Shown piece after piece: positions 44,749 through 56,751 of a stretch of DNA of 64,000 nt. The stretch is taken from positions 1 to 64,000 of the forward strand of contig JABILI010000003.1 in assembly GCA_018654575.1 (NCBI GenBank), given 5' to 3'. The translations under genes were made by a program, and so were the position numbers. Numbering within the stretch: the stretch's first letter is position 1; the number at the start of each line of letters is the position of its first letter. A model generated the notes under the pieces. The model worked only from the letters and a program-made list of their open reading frames with translations. It was not told where the DNA came from and did no database searches. Source of the stretch: Porticoccaceae bacterium. GTDB taxonomy: Bacteria; Pseudomonadota; Gammaproteobacteria; Pseudomonadales; Porticoccaceae.

Positions 44749-46884
44749 ATGACCGATAAAAAAGATCCTACAGTCAGAGAGTGGGAAAATTTAGTCGAAA
44801 AAGAGACCAAAGGTCGCTCGGCTGATGACATGATTTGGCAGACCCCAGAAGGCATAAAGGTTAAACCCCTTTATACAGCTGAAGATACCGCTGCCCTTGC
44901 CCATATGGATAATTTACCAGGTTTTGCGCCTTATAAGCGTGGCCCTAAGGCCACCATGTATGCCGGGCGGCCTTGGACTGTTCGTCAATATGCTGGGTTT
45001 TCCACGGCAGAAGAATCTAATGTTTTTTATCGAAAAAACCTAGCGGCTGGACAGCAGGGCTTGTCGGTGGCTTTTGATCTAGCTACTCATCGTGGATATG
45101 ACTCTGATCATCCTCGCGTGGAGGGCGACGTGGGTAAAGCTGGCGTTGCTATTGATTCTGTTGAAGATATGAAAATACTCTTCGATAGTATTCCGCTTGA
45201 TAAGGTATCTGTGTCCATGACAATGAATGGCGCAGTGCTGCCAGTGATGGCAAGCTTTATCGTTGCGGCTCAGGAGCAGGGGGTTGCCCCTGAACAGCTC
45301 GGCGGCACCTTGCAGAATGATATTCTGAAAGAGTTTATGGTACGCAATACCTACATCTACCCACCCGAACCCTCCATGCGAGTCGTATCCGACATCATCA
45401 GTTACAGCGCTGAATTTATGCCTAAGTTCAACTCTATTTCTATTTCTGGTTACCATATGCAAGAGGCCGGTGCGACTAATGTCCAAGAGTTGGCTTATAC
45501 GATTGCCGATGGCATTGAATATGTGCGTACCGCGATTGATAACGGTATGGATGTGGACAAATTTGCGCCACGGCTTTCCTTTTTCTTTGCTATTGGTATG
45601 AATTTCTTTATGGAAATTGCCAAGCTTAGGGCAGCTCGTATTTTGTGGGCAACCTTAATGGAGGAGAAGTTCTCACCGAAAGATCAGCGCTCATTAATGC
45701 TGCGTACCCACTGCCAAACATCTGGCGTCAGTTTAACCAGTAAAGACCCTTACAATAATATTATGCGCACCACGATTGAGGGCATGTCTGCAGTCTTGGG
45801 TGGTACTCAGTCGTTGCATACCAACTCTTTTGATGAAGCGCTTGGCTTACCCACTGAGTTTGCCGCACGTATCGCTCGAAATACGCAATTAGTGATTCAA
45901 GAAGAAACGGGCATCACCAATGTGGTCGATCCACTAGCGGGTTCTTATTATATTGAAAGCCTTACTGATGAATTAGTCCAAGCGGCTCTTGTTCTTATCA
46001 ATGAAGTCGAAGACCTGGGCGGTATGACCAAGGCGGTTGAGTCGGGGATGCCTAAATTGCGCATCGAAGAGGCTGCGGCATTGCGTCAAGTGGCCATTGA
46101 TCGTGGAAATGAAGTGATTGTTGGGGTTAATAAGTATCAATTGAGTGAAGAGCCTGAGATTGATGTAAGGGATATCGATAATTCGTCAGTGCGCGCTGCC
46201 CAGATTGAGCGACTTAATCGTTTGCGCGCCGATCGAGATTTGACGGCCTGCAATGCTAGACTCGCTGCGCTGACAGAGTCGGCAAAAACGGGTAAGGGTA
46301 ATTTATTGGCCCTAGCCATTGAAGCGGCTAGAGAAAGGGCGACCGTTGGCGAAATAAGTGATGCTCTAGAGGCAGTCTGGGGTCGACACCGAGCCCAAAC
46401 TAGATCTATTAGTGGTGTTTATAGTTCTGCCTATGAAGGTGATGAGGGATTTATGAAAATCAAACAAAAAGTAGAGGACTTTGCCGAACTCCAGGGTCGA
46501 CGACCCAGAATGTTGGTGGTAAAAATGGGTCAAGATGGTCATGACCGAGGTGCCAAAGTGATAGCAACGGCCTTTGCCGATCTAGGATTTGATGTGGATG
46601 TTGGACCCATGTTTCAGACCCCAGAGGAAGCAGCTAGGCAAGCTATTGAAAATGATGTTCATGTAGTGGGGGTCTCATCTCAGGCGGCTGGGCATAAAAC
46701 CTTGGTTCCGCAAATGATAGAGTCGCTGAAAAGTCAGGGTGCAGGAGAAATTATAGTGATTTGTGGTGGTGTGATACCGCCCAAGGACTATGACGAACTG
46801 ACCGCGATTGGTGTGGCCGCTATCTTCGGTCCGGGAACCAATATTCCTGATGCAGCTGAGAAAGTGTTAGACCTTATTCAATAA
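44749..46884 (+). CDS. Methylmalonyl-CoA mutase, single-chain (ScpA/Sbm-like)
   Basis: Adenosylcobalamin-dependent interconversion of methylmalonyl-CoA and succinyl-CoA. At 711 residues it carries both domains on one chain. The CoA/active-site barrel (about 30-560) has [21 protein letters not shown] (active-site Tyr about 71), [16 protein letters not shown], and [10 protein letters not shown]-like TPI HCQTSG. The C-terminal B12 domain has the base-off DGHDRG motif with cobalt-ligating His598, then GVSSQAAGH and [10 protein letters not shown]. It is the first gene of a propionyl-CoA operon with pccB, pccA and meaB. The epimerase gene is not present. Confidence 0.96.
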
Positions 46885-46907: not shown

Positions 46908-48440
46908 ATGCATGAGATTCTCGAAGAATTGGAAGAAAAACGACGCCTAGCTCGCTTGGGCGGGGGGCAGAAACGTATCGATGCTCAGCATGCTAAGGGT
47001 AAGCTGACCGCTCGGGAGCGACTAGATTTATTGCTTGATGATAATAGTTTTGAAGAATGGGATATGTTTGTTGAGCATCGGTGCACTGACTTTGATATGG
47101 ACAAGCAGCATGTTCCCGGTGATGGAGTAATCATTGGTTATGGCACTATCAATGGCCGATTAGTCTTCGTTTTTAGCCAAGATTTTACAGTCTTTGGCGG
47201 CGCACTCTCTGAGGCGCATGCTGAGAAAATATGTAAGTTAATGGATCATGCGATGAAAGTCGGCGCTCCCATTATTGGGCTTAATGATTCGGGAGGCGCT
47301 CGTATCCAAGAGGGCGTGGCTTCTTTAGGAGGCTATGCTGAGGTGTTTCAACGGAACGTCATGGCATCGGGGGTGATACCTCAAATATCAATGGTTATGG
47401 GGCCCTGCGCTGGTGGAGCGGTTTATTCTCCAGCGATCACTGACTTTATTTTTATGGTACAAGACAGTTCGTATATGTTTGTTACCGGCCCAGATGTCGT
47501 TAAAACAGTGACCCATGAAACGGTTACCGCTGAAGAGTTGGGTGGAGCGATTACTCATTCTAGCAAGTCAGGTGTGGCCGATCTTGCCTTTGAAAATGAT
47601 GTAGAGGCTCTTGCCAAACTACGCCATTTTTTCAATTACCTGCCAGCCAATAACAAAGAGAAGCCCCCGGTATGGCCTACAGTTGATCCGGCCGACAGAA
47701 TCGAAATGTCTCTGGATACTATTATCCCTAGTGATCCCAATAAACCCTACGACATGAAAGAAGTCATTTTAAAGGTCGCTGATGAAGGGGTTTTCTTTGA
47801 AACACAGGTTAGCTATGCGAAAAATATTATTACCGGGTTTATTCGTATCGAAGGATCAAGTGTCGGTGTAGTGGCTAACCAGCCCATGGTCTTGGCGGGT
47901 TGTTTAGACATAGATGCATCCAAAAAGGCGGCGCGGTTCATCCGTTTCTGTGATGCCTTCAATATTCCAGTACTCACGTTTGTTGATGTCCCAGGCTTCA
48001 TGCCGGGCACTAGTCAGGAATATGGTGGCATTATTAAACATGGTGCAAAATTACTATACGCTTATGCCGAATGCACTGTACCCAAAGTAACGGTTATTAC
48101 TCGCAAAGCCTATGGCGGCGCCTATGACGTAATGTCTTCTAAGCATTTACGCGGCGATGTTAATTTGGCATGGCCTACGGCAGAAATCGCCGTCATGGGC
48201 CCCAAGGGCGCGGTAGAAATTATCTTTCGTAAAGATATCGGTGATGAGGAAAAGATCGCTGCGCGTACCGAAGAATATCGTAAGAAATTTGCTAACCCAT
48301 TTATCGCAGGTAAACGCGGTTATATCGACGATGTCATTATGCCTCACAGCACCCGAAAGCGAGTGGCACGCTCTCTGGCAATGCTTAAAAATAAAAGTGT
48401 TGAAAATCCCAGGCGCAAACACGGCAATATTCCGCTATAA
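46908..48440 (+). CDS. pccB: Propionyl-CoA carboxylase, carboxyltransferase (beta) subunit
   Basis: Transfers carboxyl from biotin to propionyl-CoA (some relatives also use acetyl-CoA). The 510 residues show both crotonase-fold halves: [57 protein letters not shown] and [12 protein letters not shown] in the first; [31 protein letters not shown] and [20 protein letters not shown] in the second. The Asp in FxDVPGFxPGxxQE and glycine-rich oxyanion loops match PccB. Starts 23 bp after the mutase gene. Confidence 0.95.
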
Positions 48441-48464: not shown

Positions 48465-50447
48465 ATGTTGAAAAAAATTCTAGTGGCGAATAGGGGTGAA
48501 ATTGCCTGTCGCGTTTTTGCCACGGCTAAAAAAATGGGTATTGCGACGGTCGCGGTCTACTCTGATGCGGACCGTGATGCGCTGCATGTGCAAATGGCTG
48601 ATGAGGCCGTCTATATAGGGTCTTCCGTCTCTGCGGAAAGCTACCTTGTGATCGAAAAAATCATTCAGGCCTGCTTGGATACTGGCGCCGATGCAGTACA
48701 CCCAGGGTACGGTTTTCTATCTGAGAACAACAAATTCCGCGATGCATTAGATACTGCGGGGATCATCTTTATTGGCCCGGGGAAAAAGGCCATTGAATCT
48801 ATGGGCGACAAGATCACCTCTAAGCTTATTGCGCAAAAGGCGGGAGTTAATTGTATCCCCGGTTATACCGATGTTGTTCGCGATGCTGATCATGCGCTTG
48901 AGGTCTGTGCCGAAATTGGCTATCCCGTGATGCTTAAAGCCTCTGCCGGCGGTGGTGGCAAAGGCATGCGCGTAGCGATGAATGAAGATGAATGCCGCGA
49001 TGGGTTTGAGCGCGCTACCAACGAAGCGCGTTCTAGTTTTGGTGATACGCGTATCTTTATCGAAAAGTATATTCAGCAACCTCGTCATATTGAGATCCAA
49101 GTGATGGCAGATGGCCATGGCAACGTGATTTATTTAGGCGAACGAGAGTGTTCTATTCAGCGGCGACACCAAAAAGTGATAGAAGAGGCTCCTTCTCCAT
49201 TCCTAAACGAAACAACAAGGCAAAAGATGGGAGAGCAGAGCTGTGCCTTAGCGCGTGCGGTAGACTATCAGTCTGCTGGAACGGTCGAGTTTATAGCAGA
49301 TGCTGACATGAACTTCTATTTCTTGGAAATGAATACTAGGCTTCAGGTAGAGCATCCTGTGACCGAGTTAGTCACCGGTCAAGATTTGGTAGAGTTAATG
49401 ATTAGAGTGGCTGCGGGTGAGGAACTTCCACTGACTCAGCAGGATGTTAGTTTAACTGGCTGGGCGATGGAGTCGCGAGTCTATGCTGAAGACCCGTTCC
49501 GCAATTTCTTACCTTCCGTTGGCCGCCTAGTTCGTTATTCTGAGCCTGAAGGCGAGGGTGTTCGAGTTGATAGTGGCGTCTATGAAGGAGGCGAAGTGTC
49601 TATATTCTATGACCCAATGATTGCCAAGTTAATCACCTATGGTGAAGACCGCAGCCAGTCAATTGATCGTATGGTGGACGCCCTCGATAATTATTATATT
49701 CGTGGTGTGAATCACAATATAAGCTTTTTGAACGCCTTGATGGTGCACCCGCGTTTTATTGCTGGTGATTTGAGCACTAATTTTATTGCCGATGAATTCC
49801 CTGATGGTTTTAATGCCGACTTAGTTGTACAGGCTGACCCAGCAATTGCGTTGGTTGTTGTCGGTGCTGTTCATCAACTTCAAGAAGAGCGAGCGAGCTT
49901 GCTGTCTAACCAGCTAACCGGTCATGAGCATATAGCAAACCGAGATTGGGTTTTGGTGGTTGGAGATCAACACTCAACGGTGAGTGTTGATCTCACAGAA
50001 AGTGGATATTTGGTAAGTTTGGATAATTCAGACTATCAGGTCGAAACAAATTGGAGTTTGGGCGAACCACTTTTTAAGGCTACAGTTAATGATAAAGATA
50101 TTTCAGTCCAAGTAGAGAGTGGCGCAAAGGGCTATAAGTTGTTTTATCAAGGTGCAGAGATAAATGCTCAGGTACTTTCACCGAAAGCTACAATGCTATC
50201 GGCCCATATGATCTTCAAAGCGCCTGCTGATACGTCTAAGTTTTTGCTTTCGCCAATGCCGGGCTTACTTGTAAAAATGGCTGTTCAAGAGGGGCAAGAG
50301 ATTAAAGAGGGCGAGGAACTAGCCGTCGTTGAGGCCATGAAAATGGAAAATAGCCTTCGTGCTGTTCAAGATGGTATTGTGGCTAAAATATCAGCTATTG
50401 AGGGTGACAGTTTGATGGTTGATGAAATTATTTTAGAGTTTGAGTAG
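48465..50447 (+). CDS. pccA: Propionyl/acetyl-CoA carboxylase, biotin-carrying alpha subunit
   Basis: Carboxylates its own biotin using ATP and bicarbonate. Layout of the 660 residues: biotin carboxylase domain 1-445 (KILVANRGEIACRV, LKASAGGGGKGMRV, ERECSIQRRHQKVIEEAPSP, FLEMNTRLQVEHPVTE), a BT-type linker about 480-580, and C-terminal biotinyl domain. Biotin attaches at Lys626 in EAMKMEN. A perfect 14-bp inverted repeat lies in the linker coding region (49963-49994). Bicarbonate need gives a reason for the carbonic anhydrase gene downstream. Starts 24 bp after pccB. Confidence 0.95.
   Translation: MLKKILVANRGEIACRVFATAKKMGIATVAVYSDADRDALHVQMADEAVYIGSSVSAESYLVIEKIIQACLDTGADAVHPGYGFLSENNKFRDALDTAGIIFIGPGKKAIESMGDKITSKLIAQKAGVNCIPGYTDVVRDADHALEVCAEIGYPVMLKASAGGGGKGMRVAMNEDECRDGFERATNEARSSFGDTRIFIEKYIQQPRHIEIQVMADGHGNVIYLGERECSIQRRHQKVIEEAPSPFLNETTRQKMGEQSCALARAVDYQSAGTVEFIADADMNFYFLEMNTRLQVEHPVTELVTGQDLVELMIRVAAGEELPLTQQDVSLTGWAMESRVYAEDPFRNFLPSVGRLVRYSEPEGEGVRVDSGVYEGGEVSIFYDPMIAKLITYGEDRSQSIDRMVDALDNYYIRGVNHNISFLNALMVHPRFIAGDLSTNFIADEFPDGFNADLVVQADPAIALVVVGAVHQLQEERASLLSNQLTGHEHIANRDWVLVVGDQHSTVSVDLTESGYLVSLDNSDYQVETNWSLGEPLFKATVNDKDISVQVESGAKGYKLFYQGAEINAQVLSPKATMLSAHMIFKAPADTSKFLLSPMPGLLVKMAVQEGQEIKEGEELAVVEAMKMENSLRAVQDGIVAKISAIEGDSLMVDEIILEFE
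49963..49994. repeat. Perfect 14-bp inverted repeat inside pccA
   Basis: GAGATCAACACTCA and its exact reverse complement TGAGTGTTGATCTC flank ACGG. The mRNA would form a 14-bp hairpin with a 4-base loop. There is no following T run. It encodes part of the linker domain (around GDQHSTVSVDLT). Confidence 0.85.
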
Positions 50448-50454
50448 CACTTGA

Positions 50455-51432
50455 ATGACAGATAAATCCCAATCTTTAGCAGATCAGGTTCGAGCAGGTG
50501 ATCGCCGTGCCCTAGCCAAAGCGATCACCTTGGTAGAGTCGACAAGAGAAGATCACCGAGAAGAGGCATCGACCTTACTTGAAGCCCTAATGCCTTATTC
50601 CGGGGACTCTATCCGTCTCGGTATTTCTGGTGCGCCAGGCGCGGGCAAATCAACGTTTATTGAGGTGTTTGGCAATCATATTATAGAGCAGGGGCACAGC
50701 GTGGCGGTGTTGGCTGTAGACCCATCTTCTGCCGTCACAGGTGGATCTATTCTTGGCGACAAAACGAGAATGGAAACGCTCGCGTTTGCAGAGAAAGCGT
50801 TTGTTAGGCCTTCACCAGCTGGAAAAACCTTAGGTGGTGTGACACGGCGAACGAGAGAATCCATGCTAATCTGTGAAGCCGCTGGATTCGATGTTATCTT
50901 GGTTGAAACTGTTGGGGTCGGGCAGTCAGAGACTGCTGTGGCGGACATGGCCGATATGTTTTTGTTACTGTTATCGCCCTCTGGAGGAGATGAATTGCAG
51001 GGAATTAAGCGTGGCATTATGGAGTTGGCCGATTTAGTATTGGTTAACAAAGCGGACGGTGATCAGAGCGCAGCAGCGGCCCAAACACAGTCTGACTATA
51101 GATCTGCTATTCATTTTATGAAGTCACGCTTTGACCATTGGCAACCGCCCGTCATGACATGTTCTGCACTGAAAAACCAAGGCATTGAAGATGTCTGGGA
51201 TAAGGTAACTGAGTTTAGTTTGGCGCTTTCTGCAAAGGGGCAATTAGCGAAACTTCGTGCTCAACAATCCAAGGCCTGGATGTGGTCTGAGACGGCCGAA
51301 TCTCTCATTGCTGACTTAAAGGCGGACCCTAATGTTAAAAATTTAGTCCCTGATCTGGAGGCTGCGGTACTAGAAGGAACTTTGCCAGCAACCATAGCGG
51401 CTCAAAGACTGGTTGAGTCCTATAAAAAATAG
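50455..51432 (+). CDS. meaB: Methylmalonyl-CoA mutase-associated GTPase MeaB
   Basis: G3E-family P-loop GTPase that protects and reloads B12 in the mutase (often annotated ArgK). The 325 residues contain the P-loop LGISGAPGAGKSTFIE, VDPSSAVTGGSILGDKTRM, the switch/Walker B ILVETVGVGQSE, base-recognition VNKADGD, and the C-terminal dimerisation region. ATG at 50455 lies 7 bases after pccA. Shares the operon with its client mutase. Confidence 0.95.
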   Translation: MTDKSQSLADQVRAGDRRALAKAITLVESTREDHREEASTLLEALMPYSGDSIRLGISGAPGAGKSTFIEVFGNHIIEQGHSVAVLAVDPSSAVTGGSILGDKTRMETLAFAEKAFVRPSPAGKTLGGVTRRTRESMLICEAAGFDVILVETVGVGQSETAVADMADMFLLLLSPSGGDELQGIKRGIMELADLVLVNKADGDQSAAAAQTQSDYRSAIHFMKSRFDHWQPPVMTCSALKNQGIEDVWDKVTEFSLALSAKGQLAKLRAQQSKAWMWSETAESLIADLKADPNVKNLVPDLEAAVLEGTLPATIAAQRLVESYKK

Positions 51433-51477: not shown

Positions 51478-52065
51478 ATGTCTGAAAACACCAGAGAGAC
51501 TGAAAATTTCACTTCAATTGTCGAAGCTAATACCCATTACAGCAAGTCATTTAGTCAGTCTGAATTACAGCCACAACCAACCAGGCATATATCCATTTTA
51601 ACTTGCATGGACTCTCGAATGGATCCATATAAATTTGCAGGCTTACTCGATGGCGAAGCTCACATTATTCGCAATGCCGGCGGCAGGGCTACAGAGGATG
51701 CAATTCGCTCGCTGATTATTTCCCACAAGTTTCTTGGCACCCTCGACTGGTTTGTCATTCACCACACCAATTGCGGTATGACATTAGTGACCGATGACGT
51801 GATTGGTGAATTATTGGAGGGCGATTTAGAAACCGCGGTGCTTGAAGAGGGTGTTTGGGTTAACCCCAAGAGAGAGTCAACCGCCAACACAAAACCTGGG
51901 TCTGCGGTAGGTAAAGCTATCGACTGGCACACCTTTACTGATCTAAGAGAAAGTGTCCTAAAGGATATTAGCACCATCCGGAATCATAACCTTGTCCCTA
52001 ACCATATCAATATTTTTGGCTTTATTTTTGACGTCAAAACAGGCAAATTAACTCCCGTTAACTAA
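51478..52065 (+). CDS. Beta-class carbonic anhydrase
   Basis: Zinc enzyme interconverting CO2 and bicarbonate. The 195-residue protein has ILTCMDSRMDP (zinc Cys and the Asp-Arg pair), HIIRNAGGRATEDAIRSL, and the second ligand pair in FVIHHTNCGM (His and Cys, HxxC). It resembles the short beta-CA subtype (YbcF/Rv1284-like). It starts 45 bp after meaB in the same direction, so it is probably in the propionyl-CoA operon, where it could feed bicarbonate to PccA. ATG at 51478 is preferred to TTG at 51469. Confidence 0.9.
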   Translation: MSENTRETENFTSIVEANTHYSKSFSQSELQPQPTRHISILTCMDSRMDPYKFAGLLDGEAHIIRNAGGRATEDAIRSLIISHKFLGTLDWFVIHHTNCGMTLVTDDVIGELLEGDLETAVLEEGVWVNPKRESTANTKPGSAVGKAIDWHTFTDLRESVLKDISTIRNHNLVPNHINIFGFIFDVKTGKLTPVN

Positions 52066-52092
52066 ATCACAAATTGGCGCTAGGAGGTCAGT

Positions 52093-53292
52093 ATAAAAGG
52101 GTTTGGACCGGGGTTTTTGGTTACCGCGGCCTTTATTGGGCCTGGAAGTATTGCCACTGCCAGTGTTGCTGGGGCAAATTTTGGTTTTGTACTGCTTTGG
52201 GCCTTGCTGTTTTCTCTTATTGCTACCATCGTGCTGCAAGAAATGGCAGCTCGGCTAGGGTTAGTCTCTGGCTCCGGTCTATCTCAAGCACTGCGAAGTA
52301 CCTTTAGTAATCCTATAATAAGCCGCTGTGCTGTCGTCCTGGTAGTTTCGGCGATTGGCATTGGTAACGCCGCCTATGAGGCAGGTAATATTTCAGGAGC
52401 CGCGCTTGGGCTAGCAACCATCGCACCCTTATCGGCCGCTTGGTGTGCTCTTGTTATCGGTATTCTTAGTGCGCTGCTGCTAGGTACGGGGGGCTACAAG
52501 CTCTTAGAGCCGGTATTGATTATCTTGGTACTCACTATGAGTAGCGTCTTTGTGGTGACCATGGTGCTTGTAGATGTTGACTATGGAGCGCTGTTCAGGG
52601 GGTTAGTGACCCCGCAAATACCTGAGGGATCAGCACGGACGATTATTGCCCTTATTGGGACTACAGTTGTGCCCTACAATCTATTTCTCCACGCCAATGC
52701 GGTACAAGAAAAATGGCGCGGTGTGGATCTGGAAACTGCTATTGGGCAATCACGTAAAGACACTATGGTTTCGATCGGCCTAGGCGGATTGATTACCCTT
52801 GCAGTGATGAGCACCGCAGCGGTCGCATTTTTCCAGACCGGCAACCCATTCTCGGCTCAGTCTTTGGCAACTCAACTAGAGCCAGTGCTGGGTAGTGGCG
52901 CTAATTATTTTTTCGCCCTTGGTCTTGTGGCGGCGGGTTTAACGAGTGCTATTACAGCCCCCCTAGCTGCTGCCTATGCTGTCAGTGGGGCATTGGGCTG
53001 GCCCTCTGATTTTGCAGACCGTCGCTTCCGCGGCATCTGGTTAACGGTGCTTACCATTGGCACTCTGTTTGCTGCAGTGGGCACCAAGCCTATAGCTGCC
53101 ATACTCTTCGCTCAGGCCGCCAATGGCCTGTTATTGCCTATTATCGCTGTGTTCCTGCTTATTATTATGAACCGCGGCGACTTGCTAGGTGATCACCGCA
53201 ATAAGTGGACTGCTAATGTCATTGGTGGGACAGTGGTGGTTACTGTTACGGCTCTAGGTGTCTTTAATATTGCTAAGCTTTTTCTTTCATAG
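52093..53292 (+). CDS. NRAMP-superfamily transporter lacking the DPGN/MPH metal site; apparent ATA start
   Basis: A 399-residue protein with about eleven membrane helices and clear NRAMP family sequence (GPGFLVTAAFIGPGSIATASVAGANFGFVLLW, LQEMAARLGLVSG). The metal-binding motif of TM1, normally DPGN, is GPGS (residues 16-19). The TM6 motif, normally MPH(N), is VPYN. The Asp, Asn and Met that bind Mn/Fe in true NRAMPs are therefore missing, so the substrate is likely different. A strong AGGAGG at 52082-52087 sits 5 bases before ATA (52093), which restores the conserved GFGPGF start; the next TTG (52117) is 29 bases from that site. Lies in the propionyl-CoA/carbonic anhydrase operon. Confidence 0.85.
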   Translation: MKGFGPGFLVTAAFIGPGSIATASVAGANFGFVLLWALLFSLIATIVLQEMAARLGLVSGSGLSQALRSTFSNPIISRCAVVLVVSAIGIGNAAYEAGNISGAALGLATIAPLSAAWCALVIGILSALLLGTGGYKLLEPVLIILVLTMSSVFVVTMVLVDVDYGALFRGLVTPQIPEGSARTIIALIGTTVVPYNLFLHANAVQEKWRGVDLETAIGQSRKDTMVSIGLGGLITLAVMSTAAVAFFQTGNPFSAQSLATQLEPVLGSGANYFFALGLVAAGLTSAITAPLAAAYAVSGALGWPSDFADRRFRGIWLTVLTIGTLFAAVGTKPIAAILFAQAANGLLLPIIAVFLLIIMNRGDLLGDHRNKWTANVIGGTVVVTVTALGVFNIAKLFLS

Positions 53293-53460: not shown

Positions 53461-56400
53461 ATGTCAGTTACTTCTAAGCGCGATACAACTATGCGGACTG
53501 TGAATAAATCAAATCCACAAAAATCCGTGCCTCTTCGATTCGTTACTGCTGCTAGTCTGTTTGATGGGCATGATGCTTCTATTAATATTATGCGTCGTAT
53601 TCTGCAGGGGGCGGGGGTGGAGGTGATTCACCTGGCTCATAATCGTTCGGTTGCCGAGGTCGTGGCAACGGCTTTGCAGGAAGATGTGCAGGGTATAGCT
53701 ATTAGTTCCTATCAGGGTGGTCATGTGGAGTACTTTAAGTATGCCGTGGACCTACTTAAAGAAGCGGGTGCTGAGCATATTCGTATCTTTGGTGGTGGTG
53801 GTGGGGTGATAGTTCCCGCTGAGATTACCGAGTTACAGGATTATGGTGTAGAGCGTATTTATTCACCCCACGATGGCCAAAATATAGGCTTAGTCGGCAT
53901 GATCGAGGATATGATTGAACGATGTTCTCTCAGTTCAGGATCACCGATAACAGTTCAATCCAAAGACCTTAATGTCGCCGATAAAGGTCAGCGTAATTTA
54001 GCGACTCTAATCACGGCTATTGAGCGTGAAGAGTTGAATGAGAAAGAGTTAAAGTCATTACGAGAGCAGGCGCAATTTTTGACCAACACTGTGCCGGTCC
54101 TTGGTATTACCGGTACTGGTGGAGCGGGTAAGTCTTCACTGACTGACGAGTTAATTCGTCGTTTTCGGCAGGACAGCGCAGATCAGCTAAAGATTGGAGT
54201 GCTGGCTATTGATCCCACTCGGCGTAAAACGGGTGGTGCGCTCTTAGGTGACCGTATTCGTATGAATGCGATTTATCATCCAAACATCTATATGCGTTCG
54301 ATAGGTACTCGCGGTGCGGTAGGAGAAGTGCCAGAGTCACTTACTGACATTATTAGCGCAATGCGTCTTAGTGGTTTTGATTTGGTAGTGGTTGAAACAC
54401 CCGGTATAGGCCAGGGTGATGCGGGTATTGTACCTTATGTCGATGTCCCTATTTATGTGATGACCCCAGAGTTTGGCGCTCAGAGCCAGTTAGAAAAAAT
54501 AGATATGCTGGATTATGCTGAGCTTGTGGTTATCAATAAATTTGACCGCAAGGGTAGTGAAGACGCCTATCGTGATGTGTGCAAGCAGATGCAGCGCAAC
54601 CGAGAGGCCTGGAGTGAGCTACCAGACTCTATGCCAGTGTTTGGTTCGATTGCATCGCACTTTAATGATGATGGGGTGACTGCAGCTTACCAAGAATTGC
54701 TAAAATTGTTACAGGCCAGAGGCCTCTGTCAATTTGACCAACACCTTGAGCCTGTCAGTTGTCGAATGTCGTCTGAAAAATCATCTGTAGTGCCGGCTGA
54801 CCGTCAGCGTTATTTAGCCGAGATTGCAGATACGGGGCGTAATTATCATCAGCATGTTGAGAAGCAGGCAACCTTGGCACGTCAAAAACAACAGTTGGCT
54901 GCGACCAAGAGTATGCTTAATGATTCAGGTGCTAAGGCACCTTTAGAGATTGATGAGCTTATTAAGGACCGAGAAAAAACGATGGATGGCCGAGCTGCTA
55001 CGCTATTAGAGAATTGGCCTGCAGTGGTGGAGGCTTATTCTGGTGATGAAAAAATCGACACCTTGTCAAATGGTAAGCAAGTGACTACCACATTAAATAG
55101 CATATCTCTTTCTGGAAACAAGATTTCTCGAGTTTCATTGCCGCGATTGAAGGACCATGGAGATCTATTAACGTGGTTAATGTTAGATAATCTTCCTGGT
55201 GAATTTCCTTATACGGCGGGCGTTTTCCCATTTAAGCGTGAGGGAGAAGACCCAGCGCGAATGTTCGCTGGTGAGGGGGATGCGTTTAAAACTAATCGTA
55301 GATTTAAAGCCCTTTCTGAACACAGTGAAGCGAAAAGACTGTCTACCGCTTTTGACTCGGTCACACTCTATGGGTGGGATCCGGGTGAGCGACCTGATAT
55401 CTATGGCAAAGTAGGCAACGCGGGGGTGTCTATCTGCACCTTGGATGACATGAAGGCACTCTATGATGGATTTGATCTCTGTGACCCTCGAACATCGGTG
55501 TCCATGACAATAAATGGACCGGCACCAACAGTGCTGGCTATGTTTCTTAATACCGCCATTGACCAGCAGGTGGATAAGTTTGCCACTGAGCATAAACGTC
55601 AGCCCAATGATAATGAATATGAGAAACTGCGCGCTAACGCTCTGAGCGCTGTACGAGGAACGGTACAGGCGGATATTCTTAAGGAAGACCAGGGACAGAA
55701 CACCTGTATTTTCTCTACCGAGTTCAGTCTGCGTATGATGGGTGATATGCAGCAGTATTTTATCGATAAGGACATTCGCAATTTCTATTCGGTCTCAATC
55801 TCTGGATACCATATTGCAGAAGCAGGGGCTAACCCTATTTCTCAGTTGGCCTTTACACTGTCTAACGGCTTTACCTTTGTTGAGGCTTATCTGGCCAGAG
55901 GCATGAATATTGATGATTTTGCGCCTAACCTGTCGTTCTTCTTTTCTAACGGCATGGATCCTGAGTACACGGTCATGGGGCGGGTGGCACGACGTATTTG
56001 GGCAACGGCTATGCGAGATCGATACGCGGCTAACCCACGAAGTCAAAAACTCAAATATCATATTCAAACCTCGGGTCGTTCTCTCCACGCCCAAGAAATG
56101 AATTTCAATGATATTCGCACGACCTTACAAGCCTTGATCGCCATTTATGATAATTGTAATAGCCTGCACACGAATGCCTACGATGAGGCAATTACCACCC
56201 CTACGGAGGAGTCGGTGCGCAGAGCGTTGGCTATCCAGCTGATTATTAACCAGGAGTGGGGCCTCGCCAAAAACGAAAACCCGAGTCAAGGGGCTTTTAT
56301 TATTGACGAACTCACCGCCTTAGTTGAAGAGGCCGTGTTGCAAGAGTTTGAGAAAATCTCTGATCGAGGCGGCGTCTTAGGTGCAATGGAAACAGGTTAC

Positions 56401-56751
56401 CAGAGAGGCAAAATTCAGGAGGAGTCGATGTTCTATGAGCACAAAAAGCACGATGGAACGCTGCCTATTGTGGGGGTTAATACCTTTATTAGTGAAGCTG
56501 AAGAACAAGAAGTGGAAATCAAGTTGGCACGATCCACCGATGATGAGAAACAAAGTCAGATCAAGCGTTTGAGAGTGTTCCAGAGCGAGCATGAGGCTTC
56601 ATCTGAACTGATGCTTAAGCAACTTCAGGATGCAGTCCGTCGCGGTGATAATGGTTTTGAGCTACTGATGGATGCAGTACGTTGTTGCTCTTTGGGCCAG
56701 ATTACTAATGCGTTATTTGATGTCGGCGGCCAATATCGCCGTAATATGTAA
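53461..56751 (+). CDS. icmF: Fused isobutyryl-CoA mutase IcmF
   Basis: Adenosylcobalamin enzyme of 1096 residues joining three units: N-terminal B12-binding domain (DGHDASIN, cobalt His about 37; GGGGGVI); a MeaB-like GTPase chaperone domain (GTGGAGKSS about 217-226, [29 protein letters not shown], NKFD); and the acyl-CoA mutase barrel (about 560-1080; [66 protein letters not shown]). These match IcmF rather than methylmalonyl-CoA mutase. IcmF isomerises isobutyryl- and n-butyryl-CoA; Phe in CIFSTEF favours that substrate class over pivalyl-CoA mutases (inference). ATG at 53461; 53491 is an alternative. Confidence 0.94.
   Translation: [1096 protein letters not shown]

Follow-up and report, generated by a model that had tools for sequence, protein, structure and literature searches.

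Several relatives of the Nramp metal transporters that lack the canonical metal motif have already been described, namely the Slc11 'orphan' outgroup, the NRMT proteins and the G-motif groups (PMC10606218, PMC8806188, PMC12873925). The NRMT signature comprises DxxG in TM1 and TxxA/T in TM6, and EleNRMT, whose site is altered, transports Mg2+ (PMC8806188). YcsG has been reported as a Mn2+ importer, its overexpression raising cellular Mn2+ (PMC10448178), and MumT of Acinetobacter baumannii as a Mn importer whose deletion lowers Mn (PMC5050338). C. glutamicum needs the YcsG homologue PxpT to grow on 5-oxoproline, as demonstrated by deletion and complementation (PMC13274462). The 'orphan' outgroup is given no substrate in the accessible parts of PMC10606218 and PMC9606685. 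It is also known that the 5-oxoprolinases of the PxpABC and HyuAB/OplAH types have no sequence similarity to each other, that relatives of the HyuAB type include caprolactamase and hydantoinases, and that PxpA is presumed to depend on a metal (PMC8453981). In addition, exported proteins of Bacteroidota carry a pyroglutamate cap (PMC10653852).

Here, we describe an Nramp-related gene in a 64,000-nucleotide stretch of contig JABILI010000003.1, referred to below as the window. By the names of its near relatives, the source organism is a marine gammaproteobacterium of the SAR92 clade of the Porticoccaceae.

Results

The transporter frame is open throughout (Table 1), and its product matches the Pfam Nramp profile PF01566 with 314.7 bits against a cut-off of 29.8, being the only PF01566 gene recovered by a profile search of the genome. 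No ATG, GTG or TTG codon occurs in the frame before the TTG at 52117, which itself falls within TM1, and 4/4 closest species have ATG at the position of the ATA codon. Considering the AGGAGGT motif just upstream, ATA was taken as the start. An ATA codon (52093-52095) behind a strong Shine-Dalgarno sequence would be a rare case of non-canonical initiation or else an assembly error. Comparisons with the four closest species gave dN of ~0.02-0.05 (0.023-0.052) and dS of ~0.3-1.3 (0.34-1.32), with dN/dS of roughly 0.03-0.08, and the low dN relative to dS indicates a working gene under strong purifying selection. A consensus scan for an internal promoter or terminator near the gene performed no better than on shuffled sequences.

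Table 1. Features of the transporter locus, with positions counted from the first letter of the window.
Feature	Position	Strand	Basis
Methylmalonyl-CoA mutase (MCM), first gene of the host operon	44749..46884	+	
Propionyl-CoA carboxylase carboxyltransferase subunit, PccB	46908..48440	+	
Propionyl-CoA carboxylase biotin subunit, PccA	48465..50447	+	
MeaB GTPase	50455..51432	+	
Beta-carbonic anhydrase (CA) family protein, upstream neighbour	51478..52065	+	Pro_CA 44 bits, weak
Shine-Dalgarno-like AGGAGGT just 5' of the ATA start	52082..52088	+	direct reading
Nramp-related transporter CDS, 399 aa, predicted LeuT fold, ATA start	52093..53292	+	open frame, Pfam match, fold prediction
TM1 unwound motif G16-P17-G18-S19 (DraNramp D56..N59)	52138..52149	+	alignment
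TM3 Y95-E96-A97-G98-N99	52375..52389	+	alignment
TM6 unwound motif T190-T191-V-V-P-Y195-N196 (DraNramp A227..M230-P-H232)	52660..52680	+	alignment
IcmF, downstream neighbour	53461..56751	+	

The original prediction of an NRAMP signature with GPGS in TM1 and VPYN in TM6 was borne out by the profile score and by the fixation of these motifs within the clade. TM1 of the window protein reads AAFIGPGSIA and TM6 reads IGTTVVPYNLFLH, and alignment with DraNramp gave the replacements D56 to G16, N59 to S19, A227 to T190, M230 to V193 and H232 to Y195. The canonical TM1 Asp and TM6 Met were kept in 0/100 clade members examined; Gly, Ser/Thr and Val occupied the places of the canonical Asp, Asn and Met in 100/100, and residues G16, G18, N99, T190, T191, V193, Y195, N196, E139 and Q341 were invariant, which indicates that the non-canonical motif is a fixed feature of the clade and not a product of chance. 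Residue 19 was Ser in 17/17 Porticoccaceae and Thr in 83/83 other members, and thus GPGS as predicted held for the family but not as a motif of the whole clade, where GPGT prevails. Residue 279 was Phe in 76/83 non-Porticoccaceae and Val, Met, Ile or Leu in Porticoccaceae; except for positions 19 and 279 in this family, the site residues were identical in pxp-linked, Opl-linked and unlinked members.

No acidic residue was left in the TM1 and TM6 motifs of the 100 members, and their TM6 motifs contained neither Met nor His. The only invariant acidic residue, E139, is common to canonical Nramps. A search for shifted ligands recovered no sulphur ligand and a single acidic candidate, the TM3 residue E96, which lies a helical turn away from N99 and was Glu in 85/100 members but Gln in 15/100. 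The neighbouring Y95 was Tyr in 93/100 and Phe in 7/100, and N99 is also present in the YcsG-type group. The DraNramp TM3 proton-pathway Glu, E134, paired with N99 in the MAFFT alignment and in an ungapped match with EleNRMT, while the alignment in the accessible part of PMC10606218 seems to pair the canonical TM3 Glu with E96 instead. Although the NCBI 'Nramp family divalent metal transporter' model matches the window protein (106.5 bits, cut-off 50), the 'divalent metal transporter' label is without support from the protein's own sequence, and the clade probably carries no metals.

The AlphaFold2 model, computed with 55 clade members, reached a pLDDT of 88.8 and a pTM of 0.88. Its best structural matches by VIA-align were DraNramp, BfraNramp and EleNRMT (Z 52-55; 54.8 for 6c3i_B), followed after the Nramps by the amino-acid carriers AdiC, SLC7A10, AgcS and BasC, plus KimA (Z about 27-31). 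Profile score and fold match together place the protein in the PF01566 Nramp superfamily with the LeuT fold.

Phylogenetic analysis united the GPG(T/S)-VPYN clade with a support of 94, setting it apart from canonical Nramps and EleNRMT, and recovered a separate group of 12 rows (support 100), far from the clade and likewise linked to pxp genes, which we infer to be the YcsG group from its pxpA linkage and the published gene order. Oxoprolinase-linked members were spread over several deep branches of the clade, and most unlinked gammaproteobacterial members fell with the Porticoccaceae and a pxp-linked Streptomyces protein in one derived part, in a tree built by a quick method with several long branches and unsafe deeper joins.

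Gene neighbourhoods were compared in the 80 closest named loci (48-95% identity), a set chosen by closeness and not at random. In 37/80, pxpA-pxpB-pxpC, called by the Pfam domains LamB_YcsF, CT_C_D and CT_A_B, lay at most 6 kb from the transporter gene, mostly as the next three genes, and a further 9/80 (seven haloarchaea and two Bacteroidota) had an adjoining 5-oxoprolinase-type gene, HyuA/HyuB or a fused OplAH (Hydantoinase_A/B); the remaining 34 comprised 28 unlinked loci and six Porticoccaceae. More linked loci were found with pxp genes (G128, G047) and with an OplAH gene overlapping the transporter start (G140). Overall, the linkage extends over Bacteroidota, Bacillota, Pseudomonadota, haloarchaea and Streptomyces, whose pxp-linked transporter has 59% identity with that of the window. 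PxpA was encoded elsewhere in 21 of the 23 unlinked non-Porticoccaceae genomes checked, and one of the other two carries a Hydantoinase_B protein. In an even draw of 299 Pseudomonadota, PxpA occurred in 6/7 clade-positive genomes against about 86/292 others (~30%), with a Fisher p of 0.004 that is inflated by shared ancestry. A draw of the actinobacterial class was set aside as an unbiased test of linkage, since only 3/394 genomes were clade-positive and two of these three members were unlinked.

Other genes also accompany the oxoprolinase systems. A DUF2891 (lipoprotein-like) gene lies near, and mostly just upstream of, the transporter-pxpABC genes in 19 loci (L105:5522-6649 and 18 others), mainly in Flavobacteriaceae. 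Besides, pxpBCA occurs with a YcsG-type Nramp in L193 (G163) and in L190 (G127). The latter locus also has a gene assigned by Pfam to biotin carboxylase and one for a small protein, which suggests that some oxoprolinase systems involve carboxylation.

Within the Porticoccaceae, a transporter gene adjoining a 5-oxoprolinase gene was never seen, that of the window included. The window genome carries on contig C96 (L189:5920-12146) the order D-glutamate cyclase (YcsI)-pxpA-pxpB-pxpC-class IV aminotransferase-alanine racemase, an operon with no transporter gene that looks like a D-glutamate/5-oxoproline recycling unit. Its pxpC is fused to a D-glutamate-cyclase-like C-terminal domain, and a similar gene order occurs in G286 and G043. 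PxpA is near-universal in the genus, transporter-less members included, so its co-occurrence with the transporter there says little; one 99% complete genome (G016) has the transporter and no PxpA.

The neighbours of the window gene are those originally described, with propionyl-CoA carboxylase, MeaB and a weakly matching beta-CA upstream and IcmF downstream, the latter after a gap of 169 bp. In 16/16 genus loci with context, followed only as far as the contigs reach, the transporter is the last gene of the MCM-PccB-PccA-MeaB-(CA) operon, where it comes after MeaB or CA. Three genomes (G018, G025, G033) have the operon with CA and no transporter, G023 has neither, G016 has the transporter without CA, and G009 retains only a transporter remnant with stops. 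CA is part of the propionyl-CoA operon whether or not the transporter is present, and the two genes were lost independently. Of the species compared, only that of the window and its four nearest relatives have IcmF next to the transporter. The two nearest also carry a DbpA-type DEAD-box helicase gene, in opposite orientation, between CA and the transporter (L029:10816-12294).

The suggested tie to carboxylation, acyl-CoA or B12 metabolism did not extend to the clade, the position of the transporter gene beside this operon being conserved inside the Porticoccaceae only, and was rejected as a clade property: no CA, propionyl-CoA carboxylase, MeaB or MCM gene was found beside non-Porticoccaceae members, and the only CA-like match outside the family (L072) has 26% identity and lies at a distance of 3.8 kb. 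In place of a conserved CA/B12 neighbourhood, the clade has a different one, formed by 5-oxoprolinases.

A further member of the genus, G021, encodes a different Nramp-related protein (L047:8225-10632) with NIGTGS in TM1, directly after a UxuA mannonate dehydratase gene and near genes for a chondroitinase-B-type lyase, a cupin and a transporter-like protein; it is possibly another organic-acid (uronate) carrier of the superfamily.

Discussion

Taken together, these observations suggest that the GPG(T/S)-VPYN proteins are LeuT-fold carriers that likely import 5-oxoproline (pyroglutamate) or a similar small carboxylate, and that their gene moved to a new location in SAR92, a reading to which we give a probability of about 0.6. 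The clade is best read as a second Nramp-related group importing 5-oxoproline or a similar compound, distinct from YcsG/PxpT. The original expectation that the protein moves something other than Mn2+/Fe2+ is supported by the loss of the ligands throughout the clade and by the predominance of 5-oxoprolinases among its partners.

Transport would proceed by alternating access in the LeuT fold, presumably inwards, and the substrate would be 5-oxoproline itself or another small carboxylate much like it, cyclic or resembling an amino acid. The carboxylate may be held by the free backbone amides of the unwound TM1 GPG together with Thr/Ser19, as in amino-acid carriers of the same fold, and the lactam by Tyr195, Asn196, Thr190, Asn99 and Gln341, after which cytosolic PxpABC, in the window genome encoded on another contig, would open the ring to glutamate. 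In SAR92/Porticoccaceae, the gene would have left the oxoprolinase genes for the end of the propionyl-CoA/methylmalonyl-CoA operon.

Import of 5-oxoproline is favoured by the linkage to two unrelated 5-oxoprolinase types, which is easier to reconcile with a common substrate than with a common cofactor, by the rank of amino-acid carriers next after Nramps in the structure search, by the GPG, TM3 Asn and TM6 Tyr shared with the YcsG/PxpT group, itself tied to 5-oxoproline, and by the transporter-less pxpABC operon of a genome with no other Nramp. It is weakened by the Porticoccaceae, which are never oxoprolinase-linked and have a site altered by T19S (17/17 versus 0/83) and by loss of F279, by the PxpA-less G016 and the two unlinked actinobacterial members, and by the Mn2+ import reported from genetic and metal-content data for the related but distinct YcsG and MumT (PMC10448178, PMC5050338).

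The Porticoccaceae could alternatively mean that the SAR92 transporter was re-specialised on moving, towards propionate or another short carboxylate, or towards bicarbonate for propionyl-CoA carboxylase alongside CA, which we regard as possible but unlikely. The constant position at the end of the operon, the short intergenic distance, the clear Shine-Dalgarno sequence and the changes that the lineage shows at five clade-conserved positions, including T19S at the substrate site, are consistent with such a change, and the fixed Thr19 to Ser replacement leaves room for it. However, Thr to Ser is conservative and all other site residues match those of oxoprolinase-linked members, while the genomes with operon and CA but no transporter, the G009 remnant, the CA-less G016 and the helicase gene that splits CA from the transporter in two species indicate a loose association. 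Bicarbonate was not retained as the lead substrate, since only Porticoccaceae transporters lie near CA, and loosely. The more specific proposal that an ancestral 5-oxoproline carrier turned to propionate or bicarbonate on joining the operon, through Thr19 to Ser and Phe279 loss, appears rather doubtful.

It also seems improbable that the clade still imports Mn2+ or Mg2+ through backbone carbonyls and hydroxyls, the linked metal-dependent enzymes needing the ion. The effects of YcsG overexpression and MumT deletion on cellular manganese, Mg2+ transport by EleNRMT despite its changed site and the presumed metal dependence of PxpA (PMC10448178, PMC5050338, PMC8806188, PMC8453981) would agree with this proposal, but EleNRMT keeps the TM1 Asp where the clade has Gly in 100/100, the TM6 motif offers no Met, His or acidic residue, TM1 and TM6 have no invariant acidic residue, YcsG-type proteins fall outside the clade, and the two oxoprolinase types are better explained by a common substrate than by a cofactor. 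Finally, chance retention of a degenerate relic at the end of the operon, as the absence of the gene from several genus members, the G009 remnant and the ATA start might hint, is contradicted by purifying selection and the clade-invariant site and can hardly be entertained.

If 5-oxoproline is indeed the substrate, two separate Nramp-related clades would carry one organic substrate in bacteria and haloarchaea, suggesting that one branch of the superfamily acquired metal transport as a derived function, and marine Bacteroidota and SAR92 would have a likely route of pyroglutamate uptake. It would also provide a testable substrate for a group seemingly left uncharacterised by a 2026 phylogeny (PMC12873925); in the literature searched, which comprised open-licence papers, no 5-oxoproline assignment for the GPG(T/S)-VPYN clade was found.

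Among the known systems, canonical Nramp/MntH proteins (DraNramp, BfraNramp) have the same fold (Z 52-55) and 25-30% identity to the window protein, but their DPGN/MPH metal site is absent from the clade and the canonical SLC11 motifs are replaced by GPGS and T-V-P-Y. The NRMT Mg transporters (EleNRMT, 7qia) share the fold (Z 51.9), the TM3 GN motif and the lack of the canonical metal motif; however, they have an Asp in TM1 (DxxG) and a Glu in TM3 where the clade has Gly and Asn. The window protein reads GxxS and TxxV at the signature positions and, having no TM1 Asp, was rejected as an NRMT. The 'orphan' outgroup in PF01566 (PMC10606218, PMC9606685) resembles the clade, with Y and N four residues apart in h3 and V-Y in h6 corresponding to Y95/N99 and V193/Y195, and several invariant TM3 glycines, as judged against the text of PMC10606218; this outgroup is probably the same clade. 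MumT, by its published description, is likewise a divergent Nramp, and its operon also contains biotin-carboxylase and allophanate-hydrolase-like genes (PMC5050338).

YcsG/MntG of B. subtilis and PxpT of C. glutamicum, which represent the 'G-motif 3' group, belong to the same superfamily and fold, the YcsG structure 9a52 matching the window model with Z 44.5 at 20% identity in the fold search by which alone it was met, as a PDB-chain sequence search with a YcsG-type protein gave no match. YcsG-type proteins share with the clade the GPG of TM1, the Asn of TM3, the Tyr of TM6 and the pxpABC linkage, but they read GPGF in TM1 and VGGYITF in TM6 as against GPGT/S and VPYNLFLH, and are about 25% identical to it. 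The identity and the separate tree group rule out the window protein as a YcsG/PxpT orthologue. Since the claims of Mn2+ and 5-oxoproline transport for YcsG-type proteins conflict, the GPG(T/S)-VPYN clade offers an independent place to settle them.
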